A stretch of 64,000 nucleotides of DNA from Rickettsiales bacterium (lineage in GTDB: Bacteria > Pseudomonadota > Alphaproteobacteria > Rickettsiales > SXRF01). The notes below the pieces were generated by a model that worked only from the letters and a program-made list of their open reading frames with translations, was not told the DNA's origin and did not search any database. Made by a program: the position numbers and the translations under genes. Positions 1 through 42,781 of this stretch are shown in pieces (positions within the stretch are counted from its first letter, which is position 1; each line of letters starts with the position of its first letter). Location of the stretch: the NCBI GenBank assembly GCA_025464625.1, contig JAOAUZ010000001.1, positions 1 through 64,000 on the forward strand, written 5' to 3'.

Positions 1-2245
<2,245 letters not shown>

Positions 2246-3093
2246 TTATTTAACATACTAATTAATTATACTAATTATTGCTAATCAGTTACTTGAGTTT
2301 AGTTTGAACGATGTCTGAATTATGAACGTACAGAGCTAAAAAGCCTTCTAGCATTTCTCATTTTTATTTCTACTTCGTCAGCCTGCAACTCATGTATTAT
2401 TCATACACTTCGTTTTGGCTTTCTCGTATAAATTAAAAAGCAGAAACGCTATAAACTAATAATAGTCTATATTTTCAACAATCCAATATTACATCAACTC
2501 ATCAAATTGACACTAATCAGGTAGAATTGGCCCATATGTATTGCTACATGTGCGTGCCTTTTCCCGCGACCCTGACAAGTGTATATGATGTCAGAAAAAC
2601 CTATTCACAATATCAATCCGCATAAAGATTTTTGGATTACTCCGCTGAATCTTTAAATCCACTTCAACTCGTGAAGGGAGGGAATGTATAGCCACCCATT
2701 TCGAACCTGTCAACAGCGATAGTGCATTTTTTTTTATTTTTTTTACATGCACAAAAAAACCAGATTTTGTGCGAGTTTTGCGTGTATTGATTTTCAATAA
2801 CGGTGGATATGTTGTCGTTTGTTGAGTAATTTGTTTTGATAATTGTGAGGTAAATTTTGTGGCTAGTTTGGTTTGTAACAAAAACTATCACATAAATTGA
2901 ATGGATAGTTGTTGAGCAATATGGACATATATTTAGTGATAAATTTGCGATGAAGTAATCCGAATGCAATATTCAAAATTGCATTTTATTCTATAAAATC
3001 AACATTAATTTAAATAAAATGAAAATAATTACATATTTTTATTGATTATATTAAAAATATATGTATAAATATTAAGAATACGAGGAGCAAAAT
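2246..3093. other. AT-rich gene-free region upstream of 23S
   Basis: About 850 bp between the 23S 5' end and the DUF2089 gene. It holds one inverted-repeat element (2349-2451), T- and A-rich tracts near 2727-2745, and an 8-bp inverted repeat TAAAGATT/AATCTTTA around 2620-2655. I see no 16S, 5S or tRNA gene here. The rRNA promoter should lie in this region on the minus strand, but I cannot pick a convincing -35/-10 pair. Confidence 0.6.
2349..2451. repeat. Family D inverted-repeat element (variable arms, conserved core)
   Basis: Outer arms of about 21 nt starting TAGCATTTCT at 2349 and ending AGAAACGCTA at 2451 are imperfect inverted repeats. The centre (2389-2412) has a hairpin core, TGTAT/ATACA, followed by CTTCG. 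The same core occurs at 41847-41870 and in a compensated form at 21835-21859, with different outer arms. Confidence 0.6.
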
Positions 3094-3453
3094 ATGATAA
3101 ACTGCCCAGTCTGCCAATACAAATTAACTCTTGCCCGTCTTAAATGTAACGGCTGCGGGGTTGCTCTGGAAGGTAATTTCAATTTGCCTAGGCTTGCACG
3201 TTTATCTCCAGAATATATCACTCTTGCTGAACAGATGATTCTGTGTGGCGGAAATTTAAAGGATTTGGCAACTGAAGTTGGGGTGAGCTACCCAACTCTG
3301 CGTCGTCGCGTTGATGACTTAATTGAAAATTTGAAATCCATAAAAGATGCTGATGATAAGGTTATCTCATCGATTTTGGAAGGAATTGAAAAGGGGACTA
3401 TATCTGCCGAAGAAGGTGTTCGTAAAATAAAGGAGGTGAAAAGTGAAATTTGA
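3094..3453 (+). CDS. DUF2089-family zinc-ribbon protein
   Basis: 119 residues. An N-terminal zinc ribbon has CPVC at residues 4-7 and CNGCG near residue 18. It is followed by a helix-turn-helix-like segment (LATEVGVSYPTLRRRVDDL) and a C-terminal helix that resembles the N-terminal helix of the next protein. This is the DUF2089 pattern; the family is thought to regulate transcription, but no target is established. A good AGGAG site precedes the ATG. The 3' end overlaps the GTG start of the LemA gene by 11 nt, so the two are probably translationally coupled and co-transcribed with the TPM/PDZ gene. Confidence 0.85.
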   Translation: MINCPVCQYKLTLARLKCNGCGVALEGNFNLPRLARLSPEYITLAEQMILCGGNLKDLATEVGVSYPTLRRRVDDLIENLKSIKDADDKVISSILEGIEKGTISAEEGVRKIKEVKSEI

Positions 3454-4381
3454 TGAAAAAATAAGTGTAATGCTAGCTAACGGTAAAATATCGGCAGAAC
3501 AGGCCGAAACGTTAAAGCGTAGCTTAATGGGAGCTGGTTCTTCTGTAGCGGAAAATCTTAATCAGCATCGTTCAATATCTTATGGAGCTTTGTGCAGTGT
3601 GGCACTGATTACTGTAATCGGGTTTGCTCTATACACATCGGTTGGCGGGCATAGCGGTGCTAACCTGCCACAAGAAATACAAAATGTTGCAGAAACTTTT
3701 AATCAGCTAGGAAAGGTCGGAGAAATGAATAAATCATCATCTACAATTATGGGTACTATATTACTTGGGTTACCAGTTCTTTTATCGCTAATCTGGTTTG
3801 CACTTGGTTATAACAGCCTTGTTTCTAAAGAGGAAGATATTCTAGTTGCGTGGTCACAGGTGGAATCTAATTATCAGCGACGCACGGATCTTGTTCCTAA
3901 TCTTATACATGTTGTCCAGAATTTTACTGAACATGAAGGAAAAACTTTAACTGATATTGCAAAGCTTCGTTCGCGAGTTGAACAGATTGATGCTGAAAAA
4001 AACAAGGTTAAAGAGATTTCTGCAGGTTCTGTAACCAAATTAGGGGATGAAGCATATATGGAAAATCTGGCAAAAGCGCAGTCTGGTCTTGGTGAACAAC
4101 TGAAAGGGCTTATGGTTTCGGTAGAGGCGTATCCAGTTTTACGTTCATCTGACCAATATATGGCGCTGCAAGCAGAGCTAGAGGGTACAGAAAATCGTAT
4201 TAATGTTGCGCGCATGGCATTTAACGAAAAGGTTGGGGAATTTAATTCTGCAATTCGTAAATTACCCGGTAATTTGATGGCTGGTGCAGGTAATTTTCAG
4301 CGCAAGGCTTATTTCAAGTCTGATGAAGGTGCAAATAAAGGTATAAAGGCAAATTTATCTGCACCAAAAACAGCGGAGTAA
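3443..4381 (+). CDS. lemA: LemA family membrane protein with N-terminal SHOCT-like helix
   Basis: 312 residues, GTG start placed by an AGGAGGTGA site just upstream. Residues 1-30 form a short SHOCT-like helical motif (LANGKISAEQAETLKRSL). Hydrophobic segments lie near residues 47-67 and 103-126, followed by the typical LemA region (YNSLVSKEEDILVAWSQVES then RRTDLVPNLIHVV) and long helices to about residue 290. LemA proteins usually have one N-terminal membrane segment, so the extra N-terminal helix and first membrane span are additions. The role of LemA is not settled, but pairing with TPM-domain proteins, as here, is common and suggests envelope function. Confidence 0.9.
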   Translation: MKFDEKISVMLANGKISAEQAETLKRSLMGAGSSVAENLNQHRSISYGALCSVALITVIGFALYTSVGGHSGANLPQEIQNVAETFNQLGKVGEMNKSSSTIMGTILLGLPVLLSLIWFALGYNSLVSKEEDILVAWSQVESNYQRRTDLVPNLIHVVQNFTEHEGKTLTDIAKLRSRVEQIDAEKNKVKEISAGSVTKLGDEAYMENLAKAQSGLGEQLKGLMVSVEAYPVLRSSDQYMALQAELEGTENRINVARMAFNEKVGEFNSAIRKLPGNLMAGAGNFQRKAYFKSDEGANKGIKANLSAPKTAE

Positions 4382-20182: not shown

Positions 20183-20256
20183 GCGGGTGTAGTTCAATGG
20201 TAGAACGGCAGCTTCCCAAGCTGCATACGAGGGTTCGATTCCCTTCACCCGCTCCA
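20183..20256 (+). tRNA. tRNA-Gly(CCC), CCA encoded
   Basis: 74 nt. Acceptor GCGGGTG pairs with CACCCGC; D arm GTTCAATGGTAGAAC; anticodon stem GCAGC with loop TTCCCAA gives anticodon CCC; T arm GAGGG-TTCGATT-CCCTT. The 3' CCA is encoded. Two partial copies of the 3' third of this gene lie just downstream, each interrupted in the T-loop. Confidence 0.95.
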
Positions 20257-20267
20257 AAAATATACTC

Positions 20268-20374
20268 GGGTTCGATTGACAGATGGTCTGCTGACCATCT
20301 GCCGTCAGGCGGTGGCTCGCTTCGCTGCGCCATCCAAATGTTCTTGCTGAACATTTGTCCCTTCACCCGCTCCA
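20268..20374 (+). repeat. Split copy of the tRNA-Gly 3' end with 81-nt insert
   Basis: GGGTTCGATT (20268-20277) and CCCTTCACCCGCTCCA (20359-20374) together repeat the T-arm and acceptor strand of tRNA-Gly (20231-20256) exactly. The 81-nt insert has hairpins AGATGGTC-TGCT-GACCATCT (20281-20300) and CAAATGTTC-TTGCT-GAACATTTG (20335-20357) around a GC-rich middle. Confidence 0.85.
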
Positions 20375-20412
20375 TTACTTATAAACACTTTAAGGTGTTT
20401 ATAAGTAATGGA
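20371..20412. repeat. 18-bp perfect hairpin beginning with the duplicated CCA end
   Basis: TCCATTACTTATAAACAC and its exact inverse, separated by TTTAAG. The 5' arm starts with the TCCA of the duplicated tRNA end. The hairpin after tRNA-Leu also starts with the tRNA CCA followed by TTA and has a similar CAC-TTA-GTG tip. Confidence 0.8.
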
Positions 20413-20436
20413 ACGAGAGAGTATAGAACCAGATTA

Positions 20437-20525
20437 GAGGGTTCGAAAATTTTTCAGTAGAAAAATTTGACGGGCGTAGCCCGCCCGAAGGGCGATGGTC
20501 AGTAGACCTGAGTCATTCCCTTCAC
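20437..20525 (+). repeat. Second split copy of the tRNA-Gly T-arm with 68-nt insert
   Basis: GAGGGTTCGA (20437-20446) and ATTCCCTTCAC (20515-20525) repeat the tRNA-Gly T-arm. The insert begins with AAATTTTTC-AGTA-GAAAAATTT (20447-20468), then a GGGCGTAGCCCGCCC segment, then GGTC-AGTA-GACC. The break is directly after TTCGA. Confidence 0.8.
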
Positions 20526-22056: not shown

Positions 22057-22518
22057 ATGCTTTTTTTATCAACATTTCATAATCGGATAGACAAGAAAGG
22101 GCGGATTTCTGTGCCTGCTCAGTTCCGTGCGGTGTTGGCAGCAAAAGTTCTGGCTAATGATTTTCAGGGAATCGTGGCTTACCAATCGCCAATCAATAAT
22201 TGCATCGAGGCTTGCGGGATGAGCAGGATTATAAAACTCAATGAACGCATGGAGGCATTTGATCCATATTCGCAGGAGCGCGACGCTTTCGTAACCACCA
22301 TGTTTGGCGAATCAGTGCAGCTTTCGTTTGATGGGGATGGTCGCGTTCTGCTTCCTGAACATCTGATGGAAGCGGTCGGTTTAAAAGAGGAAGCAACCTT
22401 TGTGGGTAAGGGCGAAATTTTTGAAATATGGGAACCGAAAGCATTTAAAGATTACGCAAAACGCGCGCGCACTTTGGTGCAGGAAAAACGTTTCATGATG
22501 AAAGGGCAACCATCATGA
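22057..22518 (+). CDS. mraZ: Transcriptional regulator MraZ
   Basis: 153 residues with two MraZ/SpoVT-AbrB-like domains: the first has FHNRIDKKGRISVPAQFR and the second LSFDGDGRVLLPEHLME. MraZ forms ring-shaped oligomers that bind direct repeats upstream of the division and cell wall operon. Such repeats are present here from 21943 to 22029. Its stop overlaps the rsmH start (ATGA). Confidence 0.96.
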   Translation: MLFLSTFHNRIDKKGRISVPAQFRAVLAAKVLANDFQGIVAYQSPINNCIEACGMSRIIKLNERMEAFDPYSQERDAFVTTMFGESVQLSFDGDGRVLLPEHLMEAVGLKEEATFVGKGEIFEIWEPKAFKDYAKRARTLVQEKRFMMKGQPS

Positions 22519-23591
22519 AGAAGGATTTTGTGAATAATAAAAGCCCTCACCCTAACCCTCTCCCAGAGGGAGAGGGGATTAGGCGGGGTTCTCTCCCAGA
22601 GGGAGAGGGGATTAGGCGGGGTTCTCTCCCAGAGGGAGAGGGGAATCATAAGCCAGTAATGCTGAATGAAATGTTGGAGTGGCTTGCGCCTAAAGATGGT
22701 GGAATTTATGTCGATGGAACGTTCGGCGCAGGTGGTTATAGCCGTGCGATTTTGAAATCGGCTAACTGCCGTGTATATGCAATTGACCGCGATCCATCCA
22801 CTCGCCAATTTGCCGATTTACTAGAAAAAGAATTCCATGACCGTTTTGTTTGGATACTCGGAAACTTTGCCGATATGTGCGATTTGCTGGCGACGCACGG
22901 TGTAAAAACTGTTGACGGAATTGTGCTGGATTTAGGCGTTTCTTCGATGCAGCTTGACATTGCTGAACGTGGTTTTTCTTTCCGCAATGATGGCGATTTA
23001 GACATGCGGATGTCGGCAGAAGGAATGAATGCAGCGGATATTGTAAATAGTGCTGGCGTTGATGAGCTTGCTGATATTTTTTATTATTATGGCGAAGAAA
23101 AAGCAGCGCGACGTGTGGCGCGAGCGGTAGTTGCTGCGCGTGAAATTCAGCCGATTACCCGCACTGTGCAACTGGCGGAGATTATCCGTTCGGCGATACC
23201 TTCCAATCCCAGCAAAGCCCATCCTGCAACGCGCAGTTTTCAGGGGCTTCGTATTTATATCAACAAAGAATTTGACGCTATCGAGTCTGGACTCGCTGCC
23301 TCTGAGAAATTACTCGGAGAAGGTGGCAGGCTGGTGGTGGTGAGCTTCCATTCGCTGGAAGATCGCATTGTCAAACGTTTTACCCACTCCCGTTGTGGTA
23401 AACTTGGGGAGCATTCACGTCATGTACCAGAACTTAGAAATAAGTCTGGTATTGTGGTCGAAAATGCTCCCTCCTTTTTTTTACCAAAACCAGAGAAACA
23501 AAAAGCAAGTAGCAAAGAATTGGAAATTAACCCACGCGCACGCAGCGCGACTATGCGGATGATAACCCGCAGTGATGGAGGATTCCAATGA
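22515..23591 (+). CDS. rsmH: 16S rRNA m4C1402 methyltransferase with repeat-coded N-terminal extension
   Basis: 358 residues. The family core begins at HKPVMLNEMLEWLAPKDGG (about residue 44) with the SAM motif DGTFGAGGYSRAIL and ends normally. The first 44 residues are an extension encoded by palindromic [14 protein letters not shown] followed by two more LPEGEG units in an 11-residue period (33-bp tandem repeat, 22558-22643). The ATG at 22515 overlaps the mraZ stop and no usable start lies between the repeats and the core, so the repeat is translated. Confidence 0.95.
   Translation: MKKDFVNNKSPHPNPLPEGEGIRRGSLPEGEGIRRGSLPEGEGNHKPVMLNEMLEWLAPKDGGIYVDGTFGAGGYSRAILKSANCRVYAIDRDPSTRQFADLLEKEFHDRFVWILGNFADMCDLLATHGVKTVDGIVLDLGVSSMQLDIAERGFSFRNDGDLDMRMSAEGMNAADIVNSAGVDELADIFYYYGEEKAARRVARAVVAAREIQPITRTVQLAEIIRSAIPSNPSKAHPATRSFQGLRIYINKEFDAIESGLAASEKLLGEGGRLVVVSFHSLEDRIVKRFTHSRCGKLGEHSRHVPELRNKSGIVVENAPSFFLPKPEKQKASSKELEINPRARSATMRMITRSDGGFQ
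22544..22643. repeat. Family B repeat with 33-bp tandem units in the rsmH N-terminus
   Basis: Starts CCCTCACCCTAACCCTC; CTCTCCCAGAGGGAGAGGGG then occurs three times at exact 33-bp spacing (22558, 22591, 22624). In frame it encodes LPEGEGIRRGS units. A multiple of three keeps the frame whatever the copy number. Confidence 0.9.
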
Positions 23592-42550: not shown

Positions 42551-42637
42551 GCTCGCGTGGCGGAATAGGTAGACGCAAGGGACTTAAAATCCCTCGATCG
42601 CAAGGTTGTGCCGGTTCGAGTCCGGCCGCGAGCACCA
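42551..42637 (+). tRNA. tRNA-Leu(TAA), CCA encoded
   Basis: 87 nt. Acceptor GCTCGCG/CGCGAGC; anticodon stem AGGGA/TCCCT with loop CTTAAAA gives anticodon TAA; a long variable arm (class II) and T arm CCGG-TTCGAGT-CCGG. The 3' ACCA is encoded. A partial split copy of its T-arm lies 58 bp downstream. Confidence 0.95.
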
Positions 42638-42675
42638 TTAGCATAGCCCACTTAGGTGGACTATGCTAATGGTGC
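42632..42675. repeat. Hairpin including the tRNA-Leu 3' end
   Basis: GCACCATTAGCATAG (42632-42646) and CTATGCTAATGGTGC (42661-42675) are exact inverse copies; an inner CCAC-TTAG-GTGG stem continues after one mismatch. The 5' arm starts inside the tRNA (last six bases). Confidence 0.8.
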
Positions 42676-42694
42676 TTTGCAGTGGCGAGAACCG

Positions 42695-42781
42695 CGGTTC
42701 GACAATTTCGTTAGCGTGCTTGCACACATAAGAAATTGCGACGCAGCAAGCTGCAAGCGCAGCGAGTACGTCCGGCCGCGA
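42695..42781 (+). repeat. Split copy of the tRNA-Leu T-arm with 67-nt insert
   Basis: CGGTTCGA (42695-42702) and GTCCGGCCGCGA (42770-42781) repeat the T-arm and acceptor start of tRNA-Leu. The 67-nt insert has CAATTTC/GAAATTG with an inner GTGC-TT-GCAC stem, then a GC-rich GCAGCAAGCTGC palindrome. The break is directly after TTCGA, as in one of the tRNA-Gly copies. Confidence 0.8.

Follow-up and report, generated by a model that had tools for sequence, protein, structure and literature searches.

Introduction

The RtT repeats of Escherichia coli, represented in Rfam by the family RF00391, are annotated behind the genes for tRNA-Tyr, tRNA-Ser and tRNA-Lys. Like the units presented here, these repeats, e.g., the 178-bp repeats of tyrT, lie behind tRNA genes, end in a tRNA 3' end and contain a core of the form GGATGAGAACC..GGTTCGAC..CCCGAAGGGC. 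REP and BIME sequences are comparable as arrays of short hairpins, but the present units are bound to tRNA copies, possess a recurrent insertion point and, in the family of the genome studied here, occur in genomes devoid of Y1 transposase. The short tandem inversion duplications of enteric bacteria show a sense-antisense-sense order at palindromes, whereas the units contain a common insert with recurrent ends. Finally, integrative elements located at tRNA 3' ends are likewise associated with a direct repeat running from the T-loop to the tRNA end; in contrast, the units have an antisense arm, repeats separated by about 100 nt and no room for an integrase.

With respect to transcripts, two RtT-family RNAs located near tRNA-Asn and tRNA-Lys give Northern signals in Actinobacillus, and RtT RNA is reported to be expressed in E. 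coli and released from tyrT (PMC4986893). In 2010, rtT was likened to the BIME-type attenuator candidates (PMC2965389). The antisense-sense layout considered below is not described in the accessible parts of these two papers, and neither the layout, nor its wide occurrence, nor any sign that inserts change between tRNA genes was met with in a literature search; older descriptions may exist.

The window analysed here, i.e., the whole 64,000-nucleotide stretch from a Rickettsiales bacterium (contig JAOAUZ010000001.1), is part of a genome of 1.9 Mb in 7 contigs with 41 tRNAs, hereafter G000. It contains a tRNA-Gly(CCC) locus which is best explained as a tRNA followed by two units of a widespread tRNA-adjacent repeat, with the RtT repeats of E. 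coli as the known relative.

The tRNA-Gly and tRNA-Leu loci of the window

An earlier note on this DNA had read the locus as a tRNA-Gly followed by two split copies of its own 3' end. This reading stands: the coordinates are right, the tail repeats are exact (Table 1), and the folds of the two split copies beat 200 of 200 dinucleotide shuffles (z -4.3 and -3.4). The hairpin inserts separating the T-arm halves measure 81 nt in unit 1 and 69 nt in unit 2, and the direct repeat comparison gives 75% agreement with the tRNA over 20433-20448 for the T-arm 5' half of unit 2. Beyond the earlier description, the locus revealed an antisense arm and an inverted first insert, and a second element occurs in the window behind tRNA-Leu (42638-42780).

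Both units were recognized by R2, an RNA model built from 12 training units, four of which come from the same genome and none from the window or from E. coli. Unit 2 is matched at 20413-20523 (36.8 bits, E 8.3e-7) and unit 1 on the minus strand at 20264-20380 (32.1 bits, E 1.6e-5). The segment 20409-20430 looks like a degenerate antisense version of the tRNA-Gly 3' end, a likeness read from the whole group of units; in the window itself, the arm is a poor partner of its own tail, 46 of the 48 other tails pairing equally well or better. In the part searched with Rfam, no family apart from tRNA reached its cut-off, the microRNA matches being far below theirs.

Table 1. Features of the tRNA-Gly(CCC) and tRNA-Leu(TAA) loci in the window.
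Feature	Positions	Strand	Basis
tRNA-Gly(CCC), CCA-ended	20183..20256	+	ARAGORN; Rfam RF00005, 72.9 bits
Unit 1, T-arm 5' half, sense copy, ATAC..GGGTTCGAT	20262..20276	+	Direct repeat D2, 88% over 16 nt (20262-20277)
Unit 1, inverted hairpin insert, minus-strand reading CAAA..GTCA	20277..20357	-	R2 match and alignment with other inserts
Unit 1, tail copy TCCCTTCACCCGCTCCA, identical to tRNA	20358..20374	+	Direct repeat D1, 100% over 17 nt
CCA-anchored hairpin, 18 Watson-Crick pairs and one U-G	20371..20412	+	Fold, z -10.4
Unit 2, apparent degenerate antisense copy of tRNA 3' end, TGGA...GAACC	20409..20430	+	By eye, against reverse complement of tail
Unit 2, T-arm 5' half, sense, GAGGGTTCGA	20437..20446	+	Direct repeat D2
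Unit 2, hairpin insert, standard orientation	20447..20515	+	R3, 53.8 bits (within R3 training set)
Unit 2, tail copy ATTCCCTTCAC, 11 nt from A58	20515..20525	+	Repeat of tRNA tail
tRNA-Leu(TAA), host of second window element	42551..42637	+	ARAGORN
Hairpin 3' of tRNA-Leu, pairing with CCA	42638..42672	+	Fold score, locus comparison
Leu element, antisense arm GGTGCT...GAGAACC	42671..42693	+	By eye
Leu element, T-arm 5' half, sense	42694..42702	+	Locus comparison
Leu element, insert of a type different from Gly, no R2 or R3 match	42703..42769	+	Model searches
Leu element, tRNA-Leu tail copy GTCCGGCCGCG	42770..42780	+	Repeat of tRNA tail

Seven genomes of the family were examined at tRNA-Gly(ccc): a unit was seen behind this tRNA in G000, G003 and G008, and not in G001, G007, G010 and G011. 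The flanks behind tRNA-Gly in the sister genomes are too diverged to be aligned by eye. As a separate feature of the window, the open reading frame 22515-23591 opens with repeated LPEGEG-type peptides (22515-22640), apparently a repeat expanded within coding sequence.

Units at other tRNAs of the same genome

The suggestion of the earlier note that a small non-coding element is tied to the tRNA T-loop was borne out by a search of the whole genome for split copies at other tRNAs: units occur at nine further tRNAs, i.e., at 10 of the 41 tRNAs including Gly, and the own tail is repeated in 9 of these 10. A copy of the own tail (at least 10 nt of the last 20 nt) starting 100-160 nt downstream was detected for 7 of the 41 tRNAs, namely Gly-ccc, Pro-tgg, Leu-taa, Asn, Trp, Arg-ccg and Gln-ctg. 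The three further unit-bearing tRNAs are Lys-ttt and Arg-acg, both with a worn tail, and Ser-tga, whose unit is truncated with no visible tail copy.

Many of these loci also contain a long hairpin anchored at the CCA end. Among 40 tRNAs tested for this hairpin, the six best scores (12 or more) all belong to unit-bearing tRNAs, and the seventh place is shared by Lys-ttt, which has a unit, and Ser-gga, for which no unit was found. Low scores despite a unit were obtained for Arg-acg, Arg-ccg and Gly-ccc; in the latter, the hairpin sits 3' of unit 1. A second, shorter insert type with GTAGCC before the tail was observed in two Arg elements (L041, L035), with a similar one in L067; within the order, this type is associated with Arg as well as with further tRNAs.

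Structural organization of the unit

The standard unit follows a tRNA tail with its hairpin or terminator, and its parts are, in order, an antisense arm corresponding to the tRNA 3' end, a sense T-arm GGTTCGA, an insert of mostly 50-100 nt, and the tail again. Its borders are formed by direct repeats of this tail, which start in the T-loop and extend through the tRNA end, the fresh copies also including the terminator (about 60 bp). In aligned units, the antisense arm is followed by GGATGAGAACC, a loop, GGTTCGAC, hairpins, CCCGNAGGGC, a last hairpin and then GTC or GARTC, directly joined to AATCC and the tail. The stretch located 5' of GAGAACC approximates an antisense copy of the 3' end of the unit's own tRNA, usually with a TC to GA change in the antisense T-loop. 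Structural covariation is strong: in 12 units, 83% of the positions are paired, versus 46-53% when the partners are slid one column as a control.

The relation between arm and tRNA was measured in 49 units. The duplex of the arm with its own tail has a mean of -8.8 kcal/mol, versus -6.1 for permuted partners and -7.4 for the best of 10,000 permutations; similarly, the similarity of the arm to the reverse complement of its own tRNA reaches 12.6, versus 9.5 for permuted partners and 10.8 for the highest permutation. Single units vary: the own tail ranks first among the partners in only 4 of the 49, and within the best tenth in 20. As a group, over units, the antisense arms match tRNA identity. 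This evidence for tRNA specificity is restricted to the outer arms; letters of the P2 loop were also considered as specific for Arg and Lys, and were dropped, Lys contradicting the rule (GAACGTAGTTC with a GGGTTCG T-arm).

Relationship with the RtT repeats

According to Rfam, the window unit is not a member of RF00391 as defined: the RtT model gives 17.5 bits on the window copy versus a gathering cut-off of 45. The same model exceeds its cut-off in none of 55 genomes of the order, with weaker matches in 4, and among 14 control genomes in E. coli alone. R2, however, finds three RtT units of E. coli tyrT with 38.8-53.2 bits and a best E of 2.8e-11, in the same 674-kb search as the window copy. 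We conclude that the window unit and the E. coli RtT form one superfamily, because a model trained without E. coli or the window finds both. The remark in the earlier note that no described element has this exact layout does not hold, since the E. coli RtT repeats, found by R2 at this E value, have it.

With regard to RtT, the inserts of the window's family are distinguished by AT-rich stems and CAGNAG loops, often by a long CCA-anchored hairpin, and by inverted or anticodon-loop inserts. The E. coli Lys unit represents an exception to the usual organization: the T-loop letters are kept in its antisense copy (GATTCGAACC), so that the TC to GA change is missing, and the unit has no outer antisense arm.

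Distribution beyond the genome

The exact core pattern occurs in 5 of the 55 genomes of the order, the window's own included, at six places, each of them downstream of a tRNA whose own tail is repeated there, and the reversed pattern, used as a control, gave no match in the 55 genomes. Among the matches listed from species genomes and from the order which have a T-arm-like word upstream, the tail is repeated (at least 11 of 15 letters) at 44 of 61 places, a count from which contig-edge places and those lacking the word had been removed, and in which one of the 44 was matched to the wrong tail (L120), one is doubtful with 11 of 15 (L123) and one is counted twice (L121). The places with a repeated tail include alpha-, beta- and gammaproteobacteria, Bacteroidota and Verrucomicrobiota. 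A Saccharibacteria locus (L138) shows, by eye, the same layout with a shorter tail. Outside the Pseudomonadota, the records are single contigs, and may be due to contamination because most of them are metagenome bins. Three of six viral contigs are tRNA-related (L057, L060, L061).

At E 0.001, R2 detects units in at least 74 of the 397 Pseudomonadota genomes searched; this number is a minimum, since scoring was limited to 8 candidates in each genome. Of the best-scoring 29 R2 loci, 27 are located within 450 nt behind a tRNA and the other two beside an apparent tRNA tail. In the family of the window's genome, 10 of 16 genomes have R2 matches, and 23 of the 30 family loci lie directly behind a tRNA; L202 is located upstream of a tRNA and L215 is truncated at the 5' side. 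Five family loci (L189, L193, L200, L201, L206) adjoin apparent cut-off tRNA tails; by eye, L189, L193, L201 and L206 look as after the integration of a larger element. Weak matches at L141, L058, L059, L062 and G000:C5:425691 were taken as chance.

The hairpin insert and its contexts

In 16 aligned inserts of the family, which are clear cases picked by hand, the left end reads GA/C (the slash marking the junction) in 12 of 16 and the right end GTCA in 15 of 16. Depending on the locus, the insert occurs in three contexts, i.e., in the T-loop in standard orientation, in the T-loop inverted, as in window unit 1, and in the anticodon loop of a degenerate tRNA-Ser copy (L202, genome G007). At this last locus (L202:1457-1830), copies of the tRNA-Ser 5' half ending at the anticodon loop lie upstream of an intact gene; one of them bears the hairpin insert within the anticodon loop, together with a further insertion in the D-loop region. 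Two tandem inserts were seen by eye in L086, L106, L108 and L113.

Among 16 units, inserts at the same tRNA in different genomes are on average 66% alike, with a best value of 73%, and unrelated pairs equally reach 66%; pairs within a genome average 70%, a small, nominal excess over 66%. The most alike inserts adjoin different tRNAs, e.g., Trp and Pro of G000 (90%), Gln and Lys (85%), and Pro of G000 and Asn of the sister genome G001 (87%), and the upstream arms of the Trp/Pro and Gln/Lys pairs are only 58% and 61% alike. Judged from these values, the inserts do not follow their tRNA, and the insert appears as a separable module.

A Y1/IS200-type movement in the window's family is not supported: Y1 transposase genes (PF01797) occur in only 2 of the 16 family genomes (G002, G009), neither of which has an R2 or R3 match, and are absent from the element-bearing genomes, the E. 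coli control having Y1 genes; no candidate enzyme for a movement was found. In G010, the insert model R3 gave 15 matches, and ten of those inspected (L325-L334) are weak (E 0.002 to 0.1), with no tRNA there; they correspond to CAGNAG-loop hairpins within dispersed, quite different palindromic repeats of the form GTCATCCCGGA...TCCGGGATCCAG.

RNA or DNA as the active form

In the 16 inserts, the first and the last hairpin together comprise 281 cells, of which 257 are Watson-Crick, 9 G-U, 2 A-C and 13 other; seven of the nine G-U fall at one common position. The acceptor stems of the genome's own tRNAs, taken as a control, have 8 G-U and 1 A-C, and the 9 to 2 of the insert hairpins is similar. 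In the looser stems of 49 units the numbers are 10 G-T and 9 A-C, and in P1, 47 G-U and 54 A-C. A former view that the insert contains hardly any G-U (1 in about 205 cells) fails once two omitted column pairs are counted. The hairpin loops belong to the GNA/GGA/AGNA class in 53 of 88 cases as read, versus 1 of 88 on the other strand; because this loop class is strand-specific, one strand would count, either as RNA or as single-stranded DNA. GNA and GNNA loops are able to form very stable DNA minihairpins (PMC4686876), and the likeness of the present loops to them is suggestive only. A hammerhead ribozyme (P1 - GAUGA - stem II - GAC - stem III - GUC) was also considered, and was rejected by inspection, because GGAU pairs with AUCC and core letters 3, 4 and 14 deviate from the hammerhead consensus.

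These data bear on a functional reading, according to which the units would be RtT-type small RNAs processed from tRNA transcripts and conserved for their RNA, the helix of arm and tail mimicking the host tRNA and regulating tRNA processing or the stringent response. It would account for the core GGATGAGAACC..GGTTCGAC and CCCGNAGGGC being conserved across distant groups, for arm pairing matched to tRNA identity, for the strand-specific loops and for the 9 G-U versus 2 A-C of the insert hairpins, and RtT RNAs give Northern signals in Actinobacillus and are reported to be released from tyrT (PMC4986893). It fits less well with the patchy presence behind tRNA-Gly(ccc) and the E. coli strains without a unit at Lys or Ser, with the lack of G-U excess in P1 cells, with the inverted insert of window unit 1, and with the location of the present units behind a terminator-like hairpin. 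Taken together, such a function is conceivable and rather unlikely to be the main reason for the units.

Gain and loss of units in E. coli strains

The E. coli strains examined possess 0, 1 or 2 units at the Lys locus, and likewise at the Ser locus. At Lys, UTAK-1 and 08-3914 differ by 153 bp between identical flanks, the junctions sharing a 61-bp repeat which spans from the T-loop to about 12 bases beyond the T-run of the terminator. BW25113 and JX21CE35 differ at the same locus by 156 bp, their repeat having a single mismatch and an exact overlap of 49, and a pair of strains differs at Ser by 177 bp, with mismatches in the repeat and an exact overlap of 6. Such whole-unit differences with empty sites are as expected of recombination between direct repeats, and represent loss or multiplication rather than first insertion; loss alone can explain the presence and absence in E. 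coli. The idea of the earlier note that the element carries or regenerates tRNA ends is thereby only partly retained: the duplicated end is real, while the filled and empty sites of E. coli speak of the gain or loss of a unit and not of its first insertion. The presence of a unit at the Lys locus of BW25113, and its absence from some natural E. coli strains, make tests easy.

Possible origin and movement of the units

The evidence is evenly poised on an RtT-like unit whose small hairpin insert passes from one tRNA copy to another, by movement or by gene conversion, and which is multiplied or deleted by recombination of the tails. Comparison of the loci suggests that the insert is a separable module, with ends GA/CAAA...GTCA/A in the window's family, which may enter, in one orientation or the other, the loops of stem-loops derived from a tRNA, most often the T-loop. 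It may also pass from one tRNA locus to another, by transposition or, alternatively, by gene conversion between units, which could equally spread the inserts. Recombination between tail repeats, or slippage, would then multiply the units in tandem or delete them and leave the tRNA intact, a mechanism drawn from the copy-number differences in E. coli. The antisense-sense pair could have the tRNA itself as its source, if replication switches template at folded single strands (the terminator and the T-arm hairpins). Any function of the transcript would be secondary.

In a more specific form, doubtful at present, the insert of about 60-100 nt would be gene-free mobile DNA, i.e., a hairpin array with the ends C AAA...GTCA that enters at GA/A of tRNA loops; its entry, or a linked replication switch, would copy the tRNA end as antisense and sense while the tRNA survives, and it would have spread through the Pseudomonadota and some other phyla, RtT being the part known so far.

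An RtT-like unit with an exchangeable insert has also to be compared with site-specific integration, by which the tail repeats would be the attL and attR of small tyrosine-recombinase elements whose interior was lost. The repeats do run from the T-loop to the tRNA end, as tRNA integrators leave them (PMC9897764), and L189, L193, L201 and L206 adjoin, by eye, apparent tRNA tails cut by other integrations. Nevertheless, the units contain no integrase gene, because their 100-200 nt leave no room for one, the core is alike over distant groups, the antisense-sense arm and hairpin insert do not look like random remains, and alike inserts occur behind tRNAs with different tails, all of which makes integration scars improbable.

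Template switching alone, which would do without a mobile part, tRNA ends being turned at palindromes into short tandem inversion triplications and the similar inserts arising through gene conversion, fits the sense-antisense-sense order with turn-points at hairpins and the many tRNA types affected, each with tRNA-specific arms, but is very unlikely to suffice, as it leaves unexplained the common insert with recurrent ends, the inverted and anticodon-loop copies and the usual TC to GA change, and as window unit 1 looks like the same insert in a tRNA copy without an antisense arm.

Conclusions

The Gly locus of the window belongs to a real, widespread, tRNA-bound repeat related to the known RtT, with hints of a gene-free mobile hairpin. 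An enterobacterial curiosity, the tyrT repeats or RtT, becomes in this way a broad family with a clear anatomy, and offers a view, open to tests, of how a tRNA end can be copied, inverted and interrupted while the tRNA itself is kept. For genome annotation, it should be kept in mind that the tail copies may resemble genomic-island att sites. Should the insert indeed move, it would represent a gene-free mobile hairpin, far below the usual size of insertion sequences, with the loops of tRNAs as its target.
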